This document shows positions 38,313-45,881 of a stretch of 64,000 bases of DNA, piece after piece; position 1 is the first letter of the stretch; each line of letters begins with the position of its first letter. This stretch comes from Asanoa sp. WMMD1127 (GTDB lineage: Bacteria > Actinomycetota > Actinomycetes > Mycobacteriales > Micromonosporaceae), in the NCBI RefSeq assembly GCF_029626225.1, contig NZ_JARUBP010000001.1, forward strand, positions 7,626,001 to 7,690,000. The letters run 5' to 3'. The notes beneath the pieces were generated by a model that saw only the letters and a program-made list of their open reading frames with translations, was not told the origin of the DNA and did not search any database. Made by a program: the position numbers and the translations under genes.

Positions 38313-38927
38313 ATGCGTTGGCTGCTCGCGCTGACCGGTGCGGCGCTGATCGCGGTCACCGGCGCCCTGGTCAGGTCCGCGCCGGTCACCGCGGTCGGCA
38401 GCTTCGCGGTGCTCGCCCTGCTCGCGGTCCATCCGGCGGTACGCGACGCCGGCCCCGTCCGCCGGTTGCTCCGCGCCGGCCTCGTCCTGCTGGCCGCGGC
38501 GGTCGCCCTCGAGCACTGGCGCTGGCCCACCGGCGACCCGCCGACCGATCCGGCCGCCCTGCTCGCGCTGGTGACCGACCCGGGGCGCCAGCGGCTCGAG
38601 TTCCTGTGGCAGGTAGGCCTGGCGGGGTGCCTGATCCTCGCCTGCTTCGTCTTCATCGTCGCGATCGGACAGACGCCACGCGACCGTGGCCCGTTCGCGG
38701 CCATGTCCCTCGTTGGCGGCCTGATCCTGCTGTCGGCGACCTGGTTCGCGGCCGACCAGGCCTGGCGGAGCCGACCGGAGCCGCCGCGCGGTGACGTGTT
38801 CGTGTCGTTCGGCGTGGCGGTGGGCTTCCCGACCGGCCCGGACGTCGAGGCCGCGGTCGGCGCGGCGGTGCTCCTGGCGGGCGCCGCGCTGACCGTCCTG
38901 GGCTGCGCCCGCCGGCGCGCCAGCTAG
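38313..38927 (+). CDS. Hypothetical integral membrane protein
   Basis: 204 aa from ATG 38313, 6 nt after TAACCT (38301-38306), a leaderless arrangement; the GTG at 38307 would lie between -10 and start point. Five or six hydrophobic segments: 5-22, 27-42, 50-66, 90-112, 125-142 and 170-198, with short loops. No family recognised. Its TAG stop shares CTAG with the convergent methyltransferase gene. Confidence 0.7.
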   Translation: MRWLLALTGAALIAVTGALVRSAPVTAVGSFAVLALLAVHPAVRDAGPVRRLLRAGLVLLAAAVALEHWRWPTGDPPTDPAALLALVTDPGRQRLEFLWQVGLAGCLILACFVFIVAIGQTPRDRGPFAAMSLVGGLILLSATWFAADQAWRSRPEPPRGDVFVSFGVAVGFPTGPDVEAAVGAAVLLAGAALTVLGCARRRAS

Positions 38928-39700
38928 TCGGCCTTGCGCGCGACTCCCGCGTACTCGGATGCTGGTGTCGTGTCGTTGCCGTCCGGTCGCCAGCGCGAGC
39001 AGGTCACCAGGCCGGGCTCGACCAGTTGCCAGCCGGTGAAGAACCGCGCGATCGCGGCCGGGTCGCGGACCACCATGGGCGCGGCGCCGCCCTCGTTCCA
39101 CATGGCGACGGCGCGGTCGACGGCCTCGGGGTTGACCTCGCGCGTCGGATGCGAGATCACCAGGTGGCTGCCGGGCGCCACCGCGGCCGTCAGCGTCGCG
39201 ACGATCTCGTGGGCCTGCTCGTCGTCGGGGACGAAGTTGAGGATCCCGAGCAGCAGCACGGCGACGGGCTCGTCGAAGTCGAGCGTACGGGCGGCCGCCT
39301 CGAGGATCGTCGCCGGATCGCGCACGTCGGCGGCGAGGTAGGCGGTGGCGCCGGAGACCGTGCTCGTCAGCAGTGACCGGGCGTGCACGAGCACCATCGG
39401 GTCGTTGTCGACGTAGACGACCCGCGACTCCGGCGCGATCGCCTGCGCCACCTGGTGCGTGTTGTCGGCGGTGGGCAGCCCCGTGCCGATGTCGAGGAAC
39501 TGCCGCACACCGGCCTCGCCGGCGAGGTGCCGCACCGCGCGACCGAGGAACTGCCGGTTGAACCGCGCCGACTGCACGAGCTCCGGGAGGAAGGCGAGCA
39601 CCTGCTCGGCCGCCGCCCGATCCGCCGGGAAGTTGTCGGTGCCACCGAGCAGGTAGTTCCACAGCCGCGCCGAGTGCGCGACGCTGGTGTCCAGCTCCAC
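38924..39700 (-). CDS. DUF574/Methyltransf_19 SAM-dependent methyltransferase
   Basis: 258 aa from GTG 39700, which has GGAGG 5 nt upstream and gives the typical family start (ELDTSVAHSARLWNYLLGGTDNFPADR). Further hallmarks: VRQFLDIGTGLPTADNTHQVAQ, VVYVDNDPMVLVHARSLL, YLAADVRDPATIL, VLLLGILNFVPD. This family is abundant in Streptomyces and relatives; substrates are unknown. The GTG at 39712 is an alternative. It is divergent from a DUF1349 gene across about 50 bp. Confidence 0.88.
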   Translation of the reverse strand: MELDTSVAHSARLWNYLLGGTDNFPADRAAAEQVLAFLPELVQSARFNRQFLGRAVRHLAGEAGVRQFLDIGTGLPTADNTHQVAQAIAPESRVVYVDNDPMVLVHARSLLTSTVSGATAYLAADVRDPATILEAAARTLDFDEPVAVLLLGILNFVPDDEQAHEIVATLTAAVAPGSHLVISHPTREVNPEAVDRAVAMWNEGGAAPMVVRDPAAIARFFTGWQLVEPGLVTCSRWRPDGNDTTPASEYAGVARKAD

Positions 39701-39752
39701 GTCCGCCTCCACTGTCGAGTCCGGACAGCATAGAAGAGATACGATCTCCGCT

Positions 39753-40322
39753 GTGCTGGACGAGATGACGTGGTTCAACGAACCCGCCGACTGGTCGGTC
39801 GACGGCGGCGTGCTGCGCGCGGTGACAGGCCCGGAGACGGACTTCTGGCGGGCCACCTTCTACGGCTGGACCACCGACAACGGGCACTTCTTCCACCGGT
39901 CGGCGACGGGCGACTTCACCGCCGAGGCGCTGGTCTCCGCCGGCCACGCCACGCGGTTCGACCAGGCCGGCCTGATGGTGCGGGCCGACGAGCGCAACTG
40001 GTGCAAGACCGGGCTCGAGGTCACCTCGGGCGCGGTGCAGATCAGCACCGTCCTCACCCGCGAGTTCTCCGACCTCTCGGTGGCGCCGCTGCCGGGCCCG
40101 CCGGGCGAGGTGGCGATGCGGGTCAGCCGCTTCGGAGACGCGCTCGCCGTGCACTGCCGCGTCGGCGACGCCCCGTGGCAACTGCTGCGGCTCGGCCAGC
40201 TCGACCTGCCCGCGACCGTCGAGGTCGGCGTGATGTGCTGCTCACCGGAACGCGCCGGCCTCGAGGCGACCTTCCGCGACTTCCGGATCGGCCCCCCGAT
40301 CCCCCGCGACGGCCTCGAATAA
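39753..40322 (+). CDS. DUF1349 family protein (concanavalin-like beta sandwich)
   Basis: 189 aa. WFNEPADWSVDGGVLRAVTGPETDFWRATFYGWTTDNGHFFHR, then FDQAGLMVRADERNWCKTGLEV and FRDFRIGPP, match the DUF1349 jelly-roll fold that resembles glycan-binding lectins. No signal peptide, so it is cytoplasmic. Leaderless start: TACGAT (39740-39745) ends 7 nt before the GTG. An in-frame ATG lies 12 bp downstream. Function unknown. Confidence 0.85.
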   Translation: MLDEMTWFNEPADWSVDGGVLRAVTGPETDFWRATFYGWTTDNGHFFHRSATGDFTAEALVSAGHATRFDQAGLMVRADERNWCKTGLEVTSGAVQISTVLTREFSDLSVAPLPGPPGEVAMRVSRFGDALAVHCRVGDAPWQLLRLGQLDLPATVEVGVMCCSPERAGLEATFRDFRIGPPIPRDGLE

Positions 40323-40344
40323 CCACCGTGAAGTCGCGGCGCCG

Positions 40345-40719
40345 TCAGAGTTCGACGATCTCGCGACCGAGGGGCCAGAACGCGGCGGGTACGAGCTTGA
40401 AGTTGGCGACGCCGAACGGGATGCCGATGATCGTGACGCACTGCGCGATGCCGGCGAGGATGTGGGCGAGGGCCAGCCACCAGCCGGCCAGCACCACCCA
40501 CAGGATGTTGGCCACGCCGGAGGGCAGGCCGGCCTCGGGGCGGCTGACGATCGTGCGGCCGAAGGGCCACAGCGAATACCTCGCCAGCCGCAGCGCCGCG
40601 ACACCGAACGGGATCGTGACGACGAGGGCGAAGCAGATCAGCGCGGCGAGGCCGTACCCGATCGCCAGCAGGAAGCCGCTGCCGAAGATGAACCAGAGGA
40701 CATTGAGGATCAGCCGCAT
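40345..40719 (-). CDS. yccF: YccF-domain membrane protein
   Basis: 124 aa. Two copies of the YccF unit: LILNVLWFIFGSGFLLAIGYGLAALICFALVVTIPFGVAALRLARYSLWPFGRTIV and VANILWVVLAGWWLALAHILAGIAQCVTIIGIPFGVANFKLVPAAFWPLGREIV, with the conserved IPFGVAxxxL...WPFG. Four helices. Role unknown. CATGCT ends 6 nt before ATG 40719, supporting this start. Confidence 0.88.
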   Translation of the reverse strand: MRLILNVLWFIFGSGFLLAIGYGLAALICFALVVTIPFGVAALRLARYSLWPFGRTIVSRPEAGLPSGVANILWVVLAGWWLALAHILAGIAQCVTIIGIPFGVANFKLVPAAFWPLGREIVEL

Positions 40720-40750
40720 GATCCCAGCATGACCGCCGCGCGCCACCCCC

Positions 40751-41725
40751 TCAGGCCGGCAGCAGGCCGATGGCGGCCTTCGCCCGGTCGACCGTCGCGC
40801 CGGCCGCCGCGCGGGCCCGGGCCGCTCCCGCGCGCAGCACGTCGCGCACGTGGTCGGGCTGTGCGGCGAGCTTGCGGTAGCGGTCCTGGATCGGCGTCAG
40901 CGTGTCGACCACCGCGTCGGCGACCGCCTTCTTCAGCTCGCCGTACCGGTCGAACCCGGCGGCCAGGTCGTCGGGCCGCGCGCCGGTGCAGCCGGCCAGG
41001 ATGTCCAGCAGGTTGGCGACGCCGGGTGAGCCAGCGGGGTCGTACGTCACGGTGGTGCCGGTGTCGGTGACCGCCCGCATCACCTTGCGGCGCACGGCGT
41101 CGGGCTCGTCGAGCAGCCGCAGCGCGCCGGCCGCCGACGAGGTCGACTTGCTCATCTTCTCGGTGGGCGACGACAGGTCCATCACCCGCGCGGCGACCGG
41201 CGGGTTGACCGCCCGCGGCACGGTGAACGTGTCGCCGTAGCGGCCGTTGAACCGGATCGCGATGTCGCGGGCCAGCTCGACGTGCTGGCTCTGGTCGTCG
41301 CCGACCGGCACCTCGTCGGTGTCGTAGAGCAGGATGTCGGCGGCCATCAGGATCGGATAGGTCAGCAGCGACATCCGCACCTGCTGCTGCCGCCGCGACT
41401 TCTCCTTGAACTGGATCATCCGCTGCGCCTCGCCGTAGCCGGTGGCGCACTCGAGCAGGTAGTGCAGCTCCGTGTGCTCGGGCACGTGCGACTGCACCAT
41501 GAACAGGCAGGCGTCGGGGTCCAGCCCGGCCGCCAGCAGCAGGGTAGCGAACTCGAGCGTGCGGTCCCGTACGTCCGCCGGGTCGTGGTCGAGCGTCAGC
41601 GCGTGCAGGTCGGAGATGAACACCACCGTGTCGCCGGTGCCCTCGATGATCGGGCGCAGCGCGCCGAGGTAGTTGCCGAGGTGCAGGTTCCCGGAGGGGG
41701 TGAACCCGGTGAGTCGTCGTGCCAT
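40751..41725 (-). CDS. trpS: Tryptophanyl-tRNA synthetase
   Basis: 324 aa, class I synthetase charging tRNA-Trp. The HIGH-like motif is GNLHLGN (residues 13-19) and the KMSKS motif is KMSKSTSS near 193. Other motifs: FISDLHALT, LLYDTDEVPVGDDQSQHVELARDIA, as in bacterial TrpRS. ATG 41725 with GGGAG upstream. A 12-codon leader peptide with two adjacent Trp codons and several GC-rich hairpins precede it, which points to ribosome-mediated attenuation by Trp-tRNA supply. In Streptomyces such attenuation is known for an auxiliary, indolmycin-resistant TrpRS, so this copy could be auxiliary rather than the only one. Confidence 0.93.
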   Translation of the reverse strand: MARRLTGFTPSGNLHLGNYLGALRPIIEGTGDTVVFISDLHALTLDHDPADVRDRTLEFATLLLAAGLDPDACLFMVQSHVPEHTELHYLLECATGYGEAQRMIQFKEKSRRQQQVRMSLLTYPILMAADILLYDTDEVPVGDDQSQHVELARDIAIRFNGRYGDTFTVPRAVNPPVAARVMDLSSPTEKMSKSTSSAAGALRLLDEPDAVRRKVMRAVTDTGTTVTYDPAGSPGVANLLDILAGCTGARPDDLAAGFDRYGELKKAVADAVVDTLTPIQDRYRKLAAQPDHVRDVLRAGAARARAAAGATVDRAKAAIGLLPA

Positions 41726-41756
41726 CGGTTGGCTCCCGTGGGCTGGGGGCCGCCGT

Positions 41757-41849
41757 GCCCGAGCAGGGCCGCACACACGAACGGCCGCCCGAGCAGGGCG
41801 GCCGCGTGGTGGAATGCGCGCGGATGGGTGTGCCGCCCCGTCAGGGGCG
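41757..41849 (-). promoter_or_regulatory. trpS attenuator region with competing hairpins
   Basis: Minus strand order: CGCCCC/GGGGCG hairpin over the leader stop (41834-41849); a 9-bp stem CGGCCGCCC-TGCTC-GGGCGGCCG (41782-41804) as the likely terminator; then a repeated GCCCTGCTCGGGC at 41757-41769. GCCCTGCTCGGGC also occurs inside the terminator stem (41787-41799), so alternative pairing between copies is possible. Confidence 0.6.
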
Positions 41850-41879
41850 CCACCAGCCGAGCCGAGCGCTGATCCGCAT
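41841..41879 (-). CDS. trpS leader peptide MRISARLGWWRP
   Basis: 12 codons. Trp codons 9 and 10 are adjacent (41855-41850), and the stop TGA lies in the loop of a hairpin. TATCCT (41891-41886) ends 6 nt before the ATG, so the RNA would begin at the leader start codon. A ribosome paused at Trp-Trp would alter folding of the downstream hairpins and let transcription reach trpS, 115 bp on. Confidence 0.82.
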   Translation of the reverse strand: MRISARLGWWRP

Positions 41880-41899
41880 GAGCCGAGGATACGCCACCG

Positions 41900-43021
41900 T
41901 CAGCCCTGCCGGGCGGCGGCCAGCGCGAGGGTGGGATGGCGGAGGTTGTGCCAACCGGTGGCCCGGAGGACGCCCTTCTTGATCATCGCGACCGGGCGGC
42001 CGGTGAGCAGCCGCTCGCGCGGGCGGCCGTCGAGGTCGGTGAACTGCAGGACGCCGTCGGACCGGCCGAGACTGACGCACAGGGCGTCGCCCTTGACGCG
42101 CAAAGGCACCGGCGTACGCCCGGCCCGGCGGGCCGTGATCGCGTGGACGGCGCAGGCGGCGGCGAGGCCACCGGGGCCGCAGCCCATCCGCAGCACCTGC
42201 CCGTCCTGGGTGTGGCCGGCCGCGGCGTCGCCGATGCCGTAGACCTCCGGATGCGACCGCGAGCGCAGGGTGCCGTCGACGAGCATGCGGCCGCGGCGGT
42301 CCACGGCCAGGCCGGCGCGGCGCGCCAGGTCCGGCACCGCGAAGCCGGCGGTCCAGGCGACCGCGTCGGCGGCCACGTGGTCGCCGCCGTCCAGCCGCAC
42401 GCCGCCGGCGTCGACCGCGGTGACCGTGGCGTGCTCCCACACCTGGATGCCCAGTCGGTCGAGCGCGCGGCGAACGTGGTCCCGGCCCCGCTCGGACAGC
42501 CAGTCACCCAACGCGCCGCCGGTGAGGAGCCGCACCGTGCGGTCCGGGTGGGTCTCCGCGAGCTCGGTGGCCGTCTCGAGGCCGGTCGGCCCGGCCCCGA
42601 CCACGGCGACCGTGCCGGCGGTGCGCATCCGTTCGCGCAGCCGCTCCGCCTGCTCGGCCGTGGCCACGGCGTGGGCGTGCGCGGCCGCGCCGGGCACGCC
42701 GGACAGGTCCGCGTGACTGCCGAGCGCGTACACCAGCAGGTCGTAGTGGATCGGCTCGGCGCCGCGGGCCAGCTCCACCTGGCGCGCGGCGAGGTCGAGG
42801 CCGGTGACCTCGTCGACGACCAGCCGGACGCCGGTGCGCCGGAACAGGTCGCGCAACGGCAGGTGACGGGGTCGCCGCCCCGAGGCGAGCTGGTGGTTTC
42901 GCATCCGTTCCACGAACCGGTCGCGGTTGTTGACCACCGTGACGGTCGCGCCGGTGCGCCGGGCGAGCTGCTGGGCCGTCGAGACACCGGTGTAGCCGGC
43001 GCCCAGGACCAGGATGTGCAT
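41900..43021 (-). CDS. NDH-2-like NAD(P)/FAD-dependent oxidoreductase
   Basis: 373 aa. FAD-binding GAGYTGVSTAQQLARR at the N-terminus, second dinucleotide motif VAVVGAGPTGLETATELAE near 145, and VYGIGDAAAG near 270 for FAD. No redox-active Cys pair and no membrane-anchor helix. The layout is that of pyridine-nucleotide oxidoreductases related to type II NADH dehydrogenase. ATG with GGGGAG upstream. The gene follows the ECF41 sigma-factor gene, and an ECF41-like promoter lies in the 69-bp gap, so the sigma factor may drive it. Confidence 0.88.
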   Translation of the reverse strand: MHILVLGAGYTGVSTAQQLARRTGATVTVVNNRDRFVERMRNHQLASGRRPRHLPLRDLFRRTGVRLVVDEVTGLDLAARQVELARGAEPIHYDLLVYALGSHADLSGVPGAAAHAHAVATAEQAERLRERMRTAGTVAVVGAGPTGLETATELAETHPDRTVRLLTGGALGDWLSERGRDHVRRALDRLGIQVWEHATVTAVDAGGVRLDGGDHVAADAVAWTAGFAVPDLARRAGLAVDRRGRMLVDGTLRSRSHPEVYGIGDAAAGHTQDGQVLRMGCGPGGLAAACAVHAITARRAGRTPVPLRVKGDALCVSLGRSDGVLQFTDLDGRPRERLLTGRPVAMIKKGVLRATGWHNLRHPTLALAAARQG

Positions 43022-43052
43022 GACGTTCTCCCCTCGTCGTTCGCACCGGATG

Positions 43053-43079
43053 AACGGGAGAGGACGGCGATCCGTGACA
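43053..43079 (-). promoter_or_regulatory. Candidate ECF41-type promoter
   Basis: On the minus strand TGTCAC (43079-43074), 17 bp, CGTT (43056-43053). ECF41 promoters are described as TGTCACA about 16 bp from CGTC. It lies between the sigma-factor gene and the oxidoreductase gene. Confidence 0.6.
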
Positions 43080-43090
43080 ATGCCCGCGGG

Positions 43091-43972
43091 TTACGTCTCC
43101 TGCTTCGCCAGGAAGGCCAGCTTGTCCGGGTTGGCGATGGTGCGGATGGTGGTGACGCGGTCGCCGTCGAACTCCAGCGCGGTGACGCCGGCGAGCTGAC
43201 CGTCGAGGTGGATGACGAGGGCGGGTTCGCCGTTGACCAGCTCCGGCGTCAGGCGCATCCGGTCGGCGTAGCGGACGAGCAGGAGCAGGTAGCGGACGAC
43301 CTCGTCGCGGCCGACCAGCGGGCGGCGGACCGCCGGGGCCCGGCCGCCGCCGTCGGCCCAGGCGACCACGTCGGCGGCCAGCATCCGCTCCAACGCCGGC
43401 ACGTCGCCGCGCAGCGTGGCGTCGAGGAACTGGTCGAGGAGCTTGCGATGCTGCTCGGCCGGCGGGCTGAACCGCTTGCGGTCGGCGGAGACGTGCTGCT
43501 GGGCCCGGCGGTAGAGCTGCCGGACGTGCGGCTCCGTCGCGTCGAGGATCTCGGCGATCTCGCGGTGGCTGTGCCCGAACGCCTCCCGCAGCACGAACAC
43601 GGCGCGCTCGGGCGGGGTGAGCCGTTCGAGCAGCACCAGCATGCCGAGCGACAGCGACTCGCGCTGCACCACGGTCTCCAGCGGGTCGAGCGCGCCGCCG
43701 CCGGTGCGGACCGGCTCGGGCAGCCACGGCCCGACGTAGCGTTCCCGCTGCGCCCGGGCCGACGTGAGCCGGTCGAGACAGAGGTTGGTGACCACTTTGG
43801 TCAGCCACGCCTCGGGCGAGACGGCGAAGTCGCCGCGTTCCCACCGCAGCCAGGCGTCCTGCACGACGTCCTCGGCCTCGGACGCCTCGCCCAGCATCCG
43901 GTAGGCCACCCCGAACAACCGCCGCCGGTTGGCCTCGAACCGCTCCACCCGTTCCCGCGTCACCCCCACCAT
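43091..43972 (-). CDS. sigJ: ECF41-group sigma factor with SnoaL-like C-terminal domain (SigJ type)
   Basis: 293 aa. Sigma region 2 (FEANRRRLFGVAYRMLGEASEAEDVVQDAWLRW, about 12-75), sigma region 4 (LERLTPPERAVFVLREAFGHSHREIAEILDATEPHVRQLYRRAQQHV, about 115-165), then an NTF2/SnoaL domain (about 175-285) that replaces an anti-sigma factor and tunes activity. Known ECF41 loci pair the factor with a carboxymuconolactone decarboxylase, oxidoreductase or epimerase. Here the partner is the FAD oxidoreductase downstream. It starts 9 bp after an upstream secreted-protein gene. GTG 43963 is an alternative start. Confidence 0.92.
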   Translation of the reverse strand: MVGVTRERVERFEANRRRLFGVAYRMLGEASEAEDVVQDAWLRWERGDFAVSPEAWLTKVVTNLCLDRLTSARAQRERYVGPWLPEPVRTGGGALDPLETVVQRESLSLGMLVLLERLTPPERAVFVLREAFGHSHREIAEILDATEPHVRQLYRRAQQHVSADRKRFSPPAEQHRKLLDQFLDATLRGDVPALERMLAADVVAWADGGGRAPAVRRPLVGRDEVVRYLLLLVRYADRMRLTPELVNGEPALVIHLDGQLAGVTALEFDGDRVTTIRTIANPDKLAFLAKQET

Positions 43973-43981
43973 TAAAGGGGG

Positions 43982-44932
43982 TCAGCAGTAGCCCTCGTGG
44001 AGGAAGGCCCGTTGGCCGGGCTCGCCGAGGTCGAGCGGGAGGTCGACGTGGCTCGGCAGGTCGTCGAGGGCGGTGTTGGGCAGGACGAACTCGCGGCCCG
44101 TGTAGCGCTGGCGGACGGTCTGCTCGGCGGCCGGGGCGCAGACGAACGGGTCGGCGTAGGTGTTGTAGCCGCGGCCGACGCCCGTGTTGAGGAAGCCGGC
44201 GTCCTGGCACTGGTAGAGGACCGCGCGCAGGGCGGCGGCGTTGCGCGGGCCCGCGTAGCCGGTGGCGACGTTGGCGAAGCACTGGTCGGAGTCGGCGCCC
44301 TCGTACGGCGACGGTCCGGCGGCGGCCAGCGCGGCGAGGAAGTCCGCGTCGCAGCCGATCTCCGCCGCGGGCCAGGCGCCGGCCAGCAGCGCGTCGCGCC
44401 GGCAACCGGTGACGTCCTCGAACGCGTCGACCACGTCCGCCGACCGGTCGATGCTCCGGTAGGCCCGCTCGAGCTCGCGCAGCGCCGACCGCGGGAAGTC
44501 CAGCGGGGCCAGGCGGAACCACTCCGCGAACGTCGGCACCCGGGCGTGGACGCCGTGCGGAAGCGTGTAGACCGCGAGGTCCGTGGGATAGGGCCAGGTC
44601 TCCAGGCCGGGATAGCCGACGTACGAGAGGATCCCGATGCCGACCAACGCCGGCTCGTCGCCGTAGTCGCGGCGCAGTCGCAGGTAGGCCTCGAGGTTGG
44701 CGCTCGAACCGGCCCAGGCGTACGCGAAGCCCTCGGGGTAGAGATGGGTGTCACCGCGGCCGTGCGTGGTGCCGAACAGCGTCGGCGCGACGCAGCGCAC
44801 CTCGCGCGCCTCCCACGCGGCCTGGTATTGCGCCGGTGTGCTGATGCACCGCTGGCCGGCGGTGGCGGGCGAGGCCACGAACAGGCTGCCGGCCGCGACC
44901 ACGAGGGCGAGGAGCATCCGCGGGTGCTTCAT
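43982..44932 (-). CDS. Secreted hypothetical protein
   Basis: 316 aa from ATG 44932 with GGGAG upstream. A Sec signal (KHPRMLLALVVAAGSLFVASPATAG) is cleaved about residue 25. The mature part has at least seven cysteines, suggesting disulfides outside the cell, and blocks such as LYPEGFAYAWAGSSANLEAYLRLRRDYG and QCFANVATGYAGPRNAAALRAVLYQCQDAGF. No known domain recognised. It lies between the endonuclease (10 bp upstream) and the sigma factor (9 bp downstream). Confidence 0.7.
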   Translation of the reverse strand: MKHPRMLLALVVAAGSLFVASPATAGQRCISTPAQYQAAWEAREVRCVAPTLFGTTHGRGDTHLYPEGFAYAWAGSSANLEAYLRLRRDYGDEPALVGIGILSYVGYPGLETWPYPTDLAVYTLPHGVHARVPTFAEWFRLAPLDFPRSALRELERAYRSIDRSADVVDAFEDVTGCRRDALLAGAWPAAEIGCDADFLAALAAAGPSPYEGADSDQCFANVATGYAGPRNAAALRAVLYQCQDAGFLNTGVGRGYNTYADPFVCAPAAEQTVRQRYTGREFVLPNTALDDLPSHVDLPLDLGEPGQRAFLHEGYC

Positions 44933-44942
44933 CGACGACTCC

Positions 44943-45785
44943 CTAGAGCTTGACGTCGTGCAGATCGAAGATCTCATATCTTTCGGCGCCTCGCTGGACC
45001 GGCGCGGTCGGGTCGTAGTCGGGCAGCGGGCCGAAACCCAGGCCGGTGCGGGCCGCCACGTGCCGGACCGAGGTCTGGAAGGTCCGGTAGGGGCCGAGCG
45101 GCGGGCTGCGGTCCAGATCGCTCAGCAGGTCGGTCTGCTCGATCAGGTACGCGGTCGCGTGGACGGCCGCGCCGTCGGTGGCCACGGCGACGACCTTCCA
45201 GTACGCGCGGGGCAGCCGTACGCCGCGGTAGATCGGGTCGTCCGGGTCGAGAATCGGTCCGGTGTAGACGTTGGCCCGCAGGCGCTGGTCGGCCACGGTG
45301 GTGAGGATGTAGTCCTCGAGGCCCTGCCACGTCGCGTTGTTCTGGTTGAAGTCGCGGTGCTGCGGCGCGCAGTTGCTGAAGTGGTAGGTGTCGGCGACCG
45401 CGGCCGCCGCCTCGTCGCGCGTGTCGCCCCAGAGCTGGTCGGCGCGCCGGGTCAGGTGGCCGCGGTCGAGGTCGTTGCCGGCGTAGAGGTCCTCGCCCGT
45501 CTGCGCCGCCGGCAGCCGCGGATCGACGATCCAGCGGTCGCCCGACGTGACGTGGGTGAACCGGCGCCGGCCGTCGAGGTTGGCCGCCGACAAGATCGCC
45601 AGCCGGCGACGGGCGTGCATGACGACGCTGAAGTGGTGGTAGCGCAGCACGCCGTCGGGCGCCGCCGGCCCGGTCGCGGCGTCCGCGACGTCGAGGGTGG
45701 GCAGCGCGAGCCGGCGGCCGAGGAAGTCGGGGTCGAACCCGCTCCGCCCCGCGTAGTGGGGATCGACGCGCAGGTGGTCGTCCAC
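44943..45785 (-). CDS. DNA/RNA non-specific endonuclease (NucA/NUC family)
   Basis: 280 aa from GTG 45785; TAGAGT ends 7 nt before it. The core has HHFSVVMHARRRLAILSAANLDG, the catalytic GNDLDRGHLTRRADQLWGD (His of DRGH) and YHFSNCAPQHRDFNQNNATWQGLEDYI, where Asn binds Mg. This beta-beta-alpha-metal nuclease cuts DNA and RNA without sequence preference. No signal peptide is visible even from the longer start at 45821, so it may act inside the cell or be exported by another route. It heads a tight run with the secreted protein and sigma-factor genes. Confidence 0.88.
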   Translation of the reverse strand: MDDHLRVDPHYAGRSGFDPDFLGRRLALPTLDVADAATGPAAPDGVLRYHHFSVVMHARRRLAILSAANLDGRRRFTHVTSGDRWIVDPRLPAAQTGEDLYAGNDLDRGHLTRRADQLWGDTRDEAAAAVADTYHFSNCAPQHRDFNQNNATWQGLEDYILTTVADQRLRANVYTGPILDPDDPIYRGVRLPRAYWKVVAVATDGAAVHATAYLIEQTDLLSDLDRSPPLGPYRTFQTSVRHVAARTGLGFGPLPDYDPTAPVQRGAERYEIFDLHDVKL

Positions 45786-45881
45786 GCGAGGGACTCTACG
45801 ACCGCGGGCCGCGCCTGCCATCCGTTGTGGCGCGCACCGGACTCGACGGCCGCCCGGCGAAGCGTCCCGGCAAGGTGACGC

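Follow-up and report, generated by a model that had tools for sequence, protein, structure and literature searches.

Which signal controls the tryptophanyl-tRNA synthetase (TrpRS) gene trpS of Asanoa sp. WMMD1127 considered here, and why does a short frame with two adjacent tryptophan codons lie upstream of it? The gene is found in a stretch of 64,000 nucleotides (the window, whose first base is position 1 for all features inside it) that spans 7626001-7690000 on the main contig, in a genome of 7.97 Mb, and an earlier note on this DNA had taken the frame for the leader peptide of a ribosome-mediated attenuator. Based on the anatomy of the segment, its conservation in other genomes and the behavior of its predicted helices, we hold it very likely that the segment attenuates transcription in response to charged tRNA-Trp.

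The leader and its start signal

The leader ORF MRISARLGWWRP with its TGA stop occupies 41841..41879 on the minus strand, running from the ATG at 41879-41877 through 12 codons to the TGA at 41843-41841, and 115 nt (41840-41726) separate the stop from the trpS ATG at 41725; the coordinates previously given for such a frame match to the base. The two Trp codons (TGG TGG, 41850..41855, minus strand) take codon positions -4 and -3 relative to the stop, and the stop codon sits in the loop of a hairpin, as had been described. A likely Shine-Dalgarno sequence of trpS, GGGAG, is located at 41733..41737 (minus strand).

A -10 box, TATCCT (41886..41891, minus strand), ends six bases 5′ of the leader ATG. 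The promoters of S. lividans have the form TAnnnT with a mean of 6.3 nt to the start, according to the available text of PMC8079986. On this basis the transcript is predicted to begin at or beside the A of the leader ATG, and it is because the spacing of the box fits this A as the first RNA base that we, like the earlier note, refer to the frame as leaderless. Among pooled leaders from related loci (described below), a TAnnnT box ending 5-8 nt before the start codon was found in 93 of 107 compared to 14 of 5350 random positions, a count somewhat favored by our script, which preferred starts with a TAnnnT box where several in-frame starts were possible. Of the 14 leaders lacking the box, 13 carry AAT at roughly this position. 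A strict scan of 41700-41980 called no sigma-70 promoter. The gene upstream on the same strand, encoding an NAD/FAD oxidoreductase (41900-43021), ends nine bases before the -10 box, and therefore read-through transcripts may also enter the leader.

Conservation of the leader

All nine auxiliary trpS genes in the six genomes of the genus have a Trp leader. In a sample of 150 genomes of the family an auxiliary TrpRS (E ≤ 1e-95) was identified in 73, and these, with three genus copies scoring weaker than 1e-95, comprise a set of 76 loci. Leaders with a Trp-Trp pair and a stop were found at 58 of the 76 and single-Trp leaders at 16 (74/76 in total), while of the remaining two, one has its stop out of frame (L043) and one is cut by the contig end (L056). 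The check in relatives that the earlier note had called for thus upheld the leader, but not the Trp pair as an obligatory feature. A separate collection of 38 named loci contained 32 Trp-Trp and four single-Trp leaders (36/38 with a like frame); of the exceptions, one (L174) is frame-shifted just as L043 is, and the other (L187) has one Trp and a longer tail. From this collection, 32 loci served as a held-out set, after removal of L150, L151, L155 and L173 (family overlap) and of the deviant L174 and L187.

For codon counts L043 was set aside from the 107 pooled leaders, giving 106. Trp occupies codon -4 in 105/106 leaders, a figure conditional on the choice of frames, for which a Trp was demanded among the final six codons in the family set and the final four in the named set. 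Codon -3 is Trp in 87/106, Arg in 18 and Gln in one, and there is no Trp further upstream; 20/106 leaders contain a single Trp. Besides the Trp residues, the peptides share an initial MR or VR (63/73), a final Pro (81/106) and little else. The six housekeeping trpS genes of the genus have no Trp-Trp frame in the 300-320 nt upstream, and two of the six have a Trp-ending frame upstream without a -10 box.

Two additional observations concern particular families. In both L128 and L135, which come from class-level genomes (family code f20), a 16S rRNA gene is found ~0.7 kb away from the attenuated trpS leader, and in L127, L131, L140 and L142 (family code f28) short leaders, e.g., VLTTRSTQWWPA, precede divergent auxiliary TrpRS genes.

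Competing hairpins and the position of the ribosome

An alignment (A1) of 74 leaders, from which L090 and L056 were left out, shows a hairpin of regions 1 and 2 round the stop codon, an antiterminator of regions 2 and 3, and a terminator stem of regions 3 and 4. In the window copy (all minus strand), region 1, the 5′ arm of the stop-codon hairpin, was assigned from minimum free energy (MFE) folds and pair counts to 41844..41853, and region 2, which is both the 3′ arm of that hairpin and the 5′ strand of the antiterminator, from folds and the alignment to 41830..41839. Region 3 (41794..41802) is the partner of 41840-41832 in the fold with a ribosome at the first Trp codon. Regions 3 and 4 form a terminator-type hairpin at 41781..41805, whose stem of 10 bp (nine Watson-Crick and one G-U) pairs 41805-41796 with 41790-41781, and the tail TCGTGTGT that follows is a weak U-tract (41780-41773). 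No terminator was called in 41700-41980 by a strict scan, and TTTT stands at the stem end in just 12/74 leaders. A stem of 8-12 pairs directly after the spacer was recorded in all 74, by a script that always reports the best stem per leader. The trpS ribosome site of the window copy is 44-48 nt beyond the stem.

The segment GCCCTGCTCGGGC is duplicated in the window, at 41799-41787 and again at 41769-41757 (second copy 41757..41769, minus strand), yet the string is present in 1/74 leader regions, that of the window alone, and for this reason we judge the duplication to be incidental; its lack of conservation rules out a tandem terminator. Of the terminator stem and duplicated segment described in the earlier note, the stem is real, though 10 bp long, and the duplication is also real but is not part of the conserved device.

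The helices of the terminating structure (1:2, 3:4 and a further helix, P0, described below) have standard pairs in 84.9% of pair cells relative to a shuffled mean of 81.8%, and versions slid along the alignment are at most 46.3% paired. Twelve of its 29 pairs have changed on both sides, and none of 500 shuffles matched either the percentage paired or the covariation score. The 2:3 antiterminator is standard in 97.0% of pair cells over 72 distinct leaders and is without covariation because it is nearly invariant, although constraint on the terminator may account for part of its conservation.

The effect of the ribosome was estimated by folding, at equilibrium, RNA that ended before region 4 and from which everything up to the assumed ribosome edge had been removed. 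With a ribosome at either the first or second Trp position the antiterminator forms (over half) in 106/106 leaders. With the ribosome at the stop it forms in 0/106, partly because the assumed footprint of 12-13 nt masks region 2, and without a ribosome in 8/106. For the window copy, the antiterminator fraction of 0.7 computed with the ribosome at either Trp codon falls to 0 when the ribosome is at the stop or absent. Speaking against an attenuator, the leader that belongs to the genome's third trpS is one of those eight and antiterminates without a ribosome (0.79). A ribosome at codons -10 to -8 (footprint 13) allows the antiterminator in just 7-14 of 106. In a codon scan with three footprint sizes, the Trp codons lie inside the antiterminating range, whose 3′ border shifts with the assumed footprint, such that with the largest footprint codon -3 antiterminates in 58/106 and codon -4 still in 106/106. 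The geometry of the codons thus predicts a switch in which the position of the ribosome chooses among mutually exclusive 1:2, 2:3 and 3:4 helices, the outcome of a folding check that the earlier note had proposed.

The leader of L187, from Kutzneria viridogrisea, has one Trp followed by seven codons, so that its stop lies beyond the region 2 sequence GGCGGC, unlike in the others; this leader may work differently.

A helix at the 5′ end of the leader

A further helix of up to 11 bp, P0, joins the 12 nt at the 5′ end of the leader to the spacer that separates regions 2 and 3. For the 74 leaders the mean helix score is 17.6, compared to 15.5 when a leader is combined with the spacer of another (maximum of 200 such shuffles, 16.3) and 11.7 with shuffled spacers, and for the 32 held-out leaders it is 19.0 compared to 15.4 (maximum of 500, 17.2) and 11.4, respectively. 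Over 100 distinct pairs the z-score is 10.3 at nt 1-12, drops to 4.1 at nt 7-18 and reaches -0.7 at nt 13-24, a fall-off that argues against relatedness alone as the cause. At least six contiguous P0 pairs are present in 84/100, 78 of which touch the start codon, and the helix has changed on both sides, for instance as GCGGATG/CATCCGC, GCGAGGA/TCCTCGC and GCGCGTGTC/GACACGCGC. This pairing may explain why most of the peptides start with MR or VR.

In the window copy P0 has seven pairs, between TGCGGAT (41872..41878), which overlaps the start codon, and ATCCGCG (41819..41825) in the spacer (both minus strand). It is absent from the MFE fold of this copy and equilibrium folds manage without it, by which we reject a requirement for P0 in termination. 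In six named Streptomyces leaders pairing at nt 1-12 is weak (scores of 9-16), and a helix of 9-11 pairs is found instead at nt 7-21, where it does not involve the start codon.

The auxiliary synthetase and its relatives

The protein predicted from the window trpS (40751..41725, minus strand; 324 aa) matches TIGR00233 with 293.6 bits (cut-off 176.75) and PF00579, and its nearest named records are from Asanoa siamensis (85% identity) and A. iriomotensis (83%). A count of trpS genes, suggested by the earlier note, gave three in this genome, one of them a housekeeping gene without a Trp-Trp leader and two auxiliary genes with a leader, the window copy among them. As in TrpRS1-type systems, an extra trpS thus stands beside a housekeeping one. 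A housekeeping role for the window copy is ruled out by this count and by the presence of a housekeeping-type TrpRS gene in 149 of 150 family genomes, the exception being a genome that is 77% complete.

In a quick maximum-likelihood tree of 92 rows with SH-aLRT supports, without bootstrap, the 79 actinobacterial auxiliary rows form one group (99), from which five housekeeping rows, all of this genus, stand apart (99). The Streptomyces TrpRS1-like enzymes are one branch of the auxiliary group (nine rows, 99), and thus in this tree the window TrpRS and those enzymes share common descent. The window copy is placed on a different branch, in clade A (31 rows, SH-aLRT 99), whose members come from Pseudonocardiaceae, Streptosporangiaceae, Thermomonosporaceae, Nocardiaceae, Actinospicaceae and Micromonosporaceae. 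Within clade A three copies of the genus cluster with two Pseudonocardiales sequences (five rows, 100), a grouping that suggests gene transfer.

The earlier note had raised the possibility that the copy tolerates a drug, and had proposed a comparison of active-site residues with TrpRS1-type enzymes. Residues H43, D132 and Q147 of BsTrpRS are named as determinants for indolmycin in the available text of PMC4899734. Among 120 auxiliary rows the equivalents of D132 and Q147 are kept in all and that of H43 in 119; the window copy keeps all three and is without resistance of the H43N type. These three positions cannot tell resistance from sensitivity because they are also kept in the Streptomyces TrpRS1-like enzymes, and the comparison is consequently non-discriminating for drug tolerance. 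A further position corresponds to Q9, which we take to be an active-site residue. The window copy and 29/30 named rows have Thr there, 10/10 Streptomyces copies and 53/67 family rows have Lys, and 7/7 housekeeping rows (one gene counted twice) have Gln. Gln is also found there in 4/67 family and 3/6 other genus auxiliary rows. From residues of this kind indolmycin resistance would not be readable.

Shortened and decayed copies

The third trpS of the genome (contig positions 7906187-7907258, L089) lies outside the window and has its own Trp-Trp leader, MRTLSFLGWWTP. Its TrpRS has an in-frame internal deletion of ~21-25 residues round a RMIQFKEKS stretch, and a deletion of this kind is present in the other auxiliary TrpRS of all three genus genomes that carry a window-type copy, whereas in the three genus genomes without such a copy the other auxiliary TrpRS is full length; the pattern comprises six genomes and possibly one event. 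Some of the shortened copies have wear at sites that we take to be the HIGH- and KMSKS-type motifs. The leader before the shortened TrpRS is intact.

Twenty of 104 matches to a model of the leader were fetched, picked mostly for lying at no known auxiliary trpS, and most of these were Trp-Trp leaders before genes that by eye resemble anthranilate synthase. In the genome of the window, a leader VHARLSMWWPADPAAHFRA (L103, contig positions 6881470-6881566) precedes an anthranilate-synthase-like gene whose NCBIfam matches are below the curated cut-offs; VHARLSMWWPADPAAHFRA or close variants occur in all six genus genomes, L103 being the locus scanned. Attenuators in family genomes were also seen before a frame-split TrpRS (L205) and a largely deleted TrpRS (L206), and at L208 with no TrpRS in the stretch read. 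The weak model matches L106-L109 and L113 have no Trp leader.

Mechanism and alternative explanations

The leader, the -10 box, the position of the Trp codons, the position of the stop and the competing helices are all conserved, which strongly supports the proposal of ribosome-mediated attenuation. RNA polymerase would start at the A of the leader ATG or at a neighboring base, and a ribosome would initiate on the resulting leaderless message. As long as Trp-tRNA suffices, the ribosome would pass both Trp codons and reach the stop, covering region 2, whereupon region 3 would pair with region 4 and transcription would end before trpS. When Trp-tRNA is short, either through Trp starvation or because the housekeeping TrpRS is inhibited, the ribosome would wait at codon -4 or -3, leaving region 2 free to pair with region 3 and block the terminator, and the auxiliary TrpRS would be made. 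Without a ribosome, region 1 would take region 2 and the terminator would form, making off the default state, to which P0 at the 5′ end may add.

The weak U-tract of the window copy invites a different account of the same stall, namely Rho-dependent or translational control, with the waiting ribosome exposing or covering RNA for Rho or for the trpS ribosome site in place of a hairpin terminator. The trpL2 leader of S. lividans is likewise without a uridine-rich stretch after it in the available text of PMC8079986, and Rho was proposed by Seliverstov et al. for actinobacterial cys leaders without terminators (PMC1262725, in the part available). The covarying stem that follows the spacer throughout the 74 leaders and the distance from that stem to the trpS ribosome site speak against control of either type, and we regard both as improbable. 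As for the suspicion that a Trp-Trp frame and hairpins have merely come together by chance in GC-rich intergenic DNA, the window stretch does fold just modestly better than its shuffles (z -1.69, with 11/200 shuffles equally good). However, Markov-randomized upstream sequences had a Trp-Trp frame (≤30 codons, within 350 nt) in 10 of 1500 cases, and the device is conserved over several Actinomycetota families with fixed codon geometry; chance is already refuted by these comparative data and we give it next to no weight.

It might also be supposed that the signal is a ribosome-stalling antibiotic, the Trp codons being a mere stall site, since extra TrpRS genes of actinobacteria have been linked with self-resistance to TrpRS inhibitors (PMC6804068, PMC12087186, available text). 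Inhibitors of TrpRS would, though, act through uncharged tRNA in any case, and a sequence-specific sensor of the nascent chain is unlikely because so little of the peptide is conserved, making this reading a very improbable one. An Rfam search of 41600-42000 at E up to 1 returned no family, and a search of five leader loci at E up to 0.1 returned nothing but 16S rRNA, results by which a T-box (with its T-box sequence and specifier loop) or a riboswitch is ruled out. The seven other ORFs scanned in 38927-45821 encode an oxidoreductase, a sigma factor, YccF, a DUF1349 protein, a methyltransferase, an endonuclease and a protein that matched no family, and a biosynthetic cluster adjoining trpS is ruled out for the ORFs in this interval.

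Comparison with known systems

Attenuation of auxiliary trpS is already known in Streptomyces, and the window system is another case of it and not a new kind. The gene studied by Vecchione and Sello is reportedly S. coelicolor trpRS1. To judge by its title, their report (Vecchione and Sello, 2010; J Bacteriol 192:3565, as referenced in PMC4787780) concerns an auxiliary, antibiotic-resistant trpS and its control by ribosome-mediated transcriptional attenuation. That system resembles ours in the attenuation of an auxiliary trpS, and the Streptomyces copies, with Trp-Trp or single-Trp leaders, belong to the same auxiliary group; the window copy differs in its placement in clade A, where the leaders are mostly MRxxxxLGWWRP. 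According to the available text of PMC8079986, trpL2 of S. lividans TK24 (SLIV_21112, MMTRTCTQLWRAA) precedes trpS and is leaderless by RNA-seq. Like the window leader it has Trp four codons before the stop and two hairpins, but it has a single Trp codon. A classical attenuator was predicted before the extra trpS of S. avermitilis, trpS2, by Seliverstov et al. (2005), and the part of that report available shows no leader conservation for trpS (PMC1262725), unlike the present data. An extra Streptomyces TrpRS is described as indolmycin-resistant in the available text of reviews (PMC9437257, PMC6804068).

The window system has the short leader ORF with sensed codons near its stop that is typical of classical attenuators. 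The E. coli trpL leader is the classical attenuator of the trp operon, and it and actinobacterial trpE leaders, e.g., MFAHSTRNWWWTAHPAAH, share with the window copy the logic of regions 1-4 and Trp codons before the stop. By contrast, the window attenuator would control a synthetase rather than biosynthesis, has its stop four codons after the first Trp and is predicted to be leaderless.

As far as we have seen, the covarying P0, the wide actinobacterial spread and the shortened third trpS that keeps its attenuator are new. The open literature searched, to the extent available, contained no description of P0 or of trpS leaders from actinobacteria other than Streptomyces; the papers of Vecchione and Sello (2009, 2010) and a 2016 paper on an indolmycin structure lie outside it and may describe P0. 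A more speculative idea, which we consider possible but rather unlikely, is that P0 gates leaderless initiation as a second layer of control, and that attenuator and synthetase together are a portable, spreading unit that replaces decaying copies. If this were true, the attenuator would read not only Trp-tRNA but also ribosomes able to start on leaderless mRNA, and the unit would replace older auxiliary copies that keep the same attenuator.

The switch is extended by these data from Streptomyces to about half of the sampled genomes of the family (probably Micromonosporaceae) and to several other actinobacterial families, with P0 as a testable new detail of the attenuator. A leaderless frame with Trp four codons before its stop, ahead of an auxiliary trpS, is its diagnostic. 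Since a potentially resistant extra trpRS served to find the cluster for the TrpRS inhibitor chuangxinmycin in Actinoplanes tsinanensis (PMC12087186, available text), the leader may help to find copies that are inducible.
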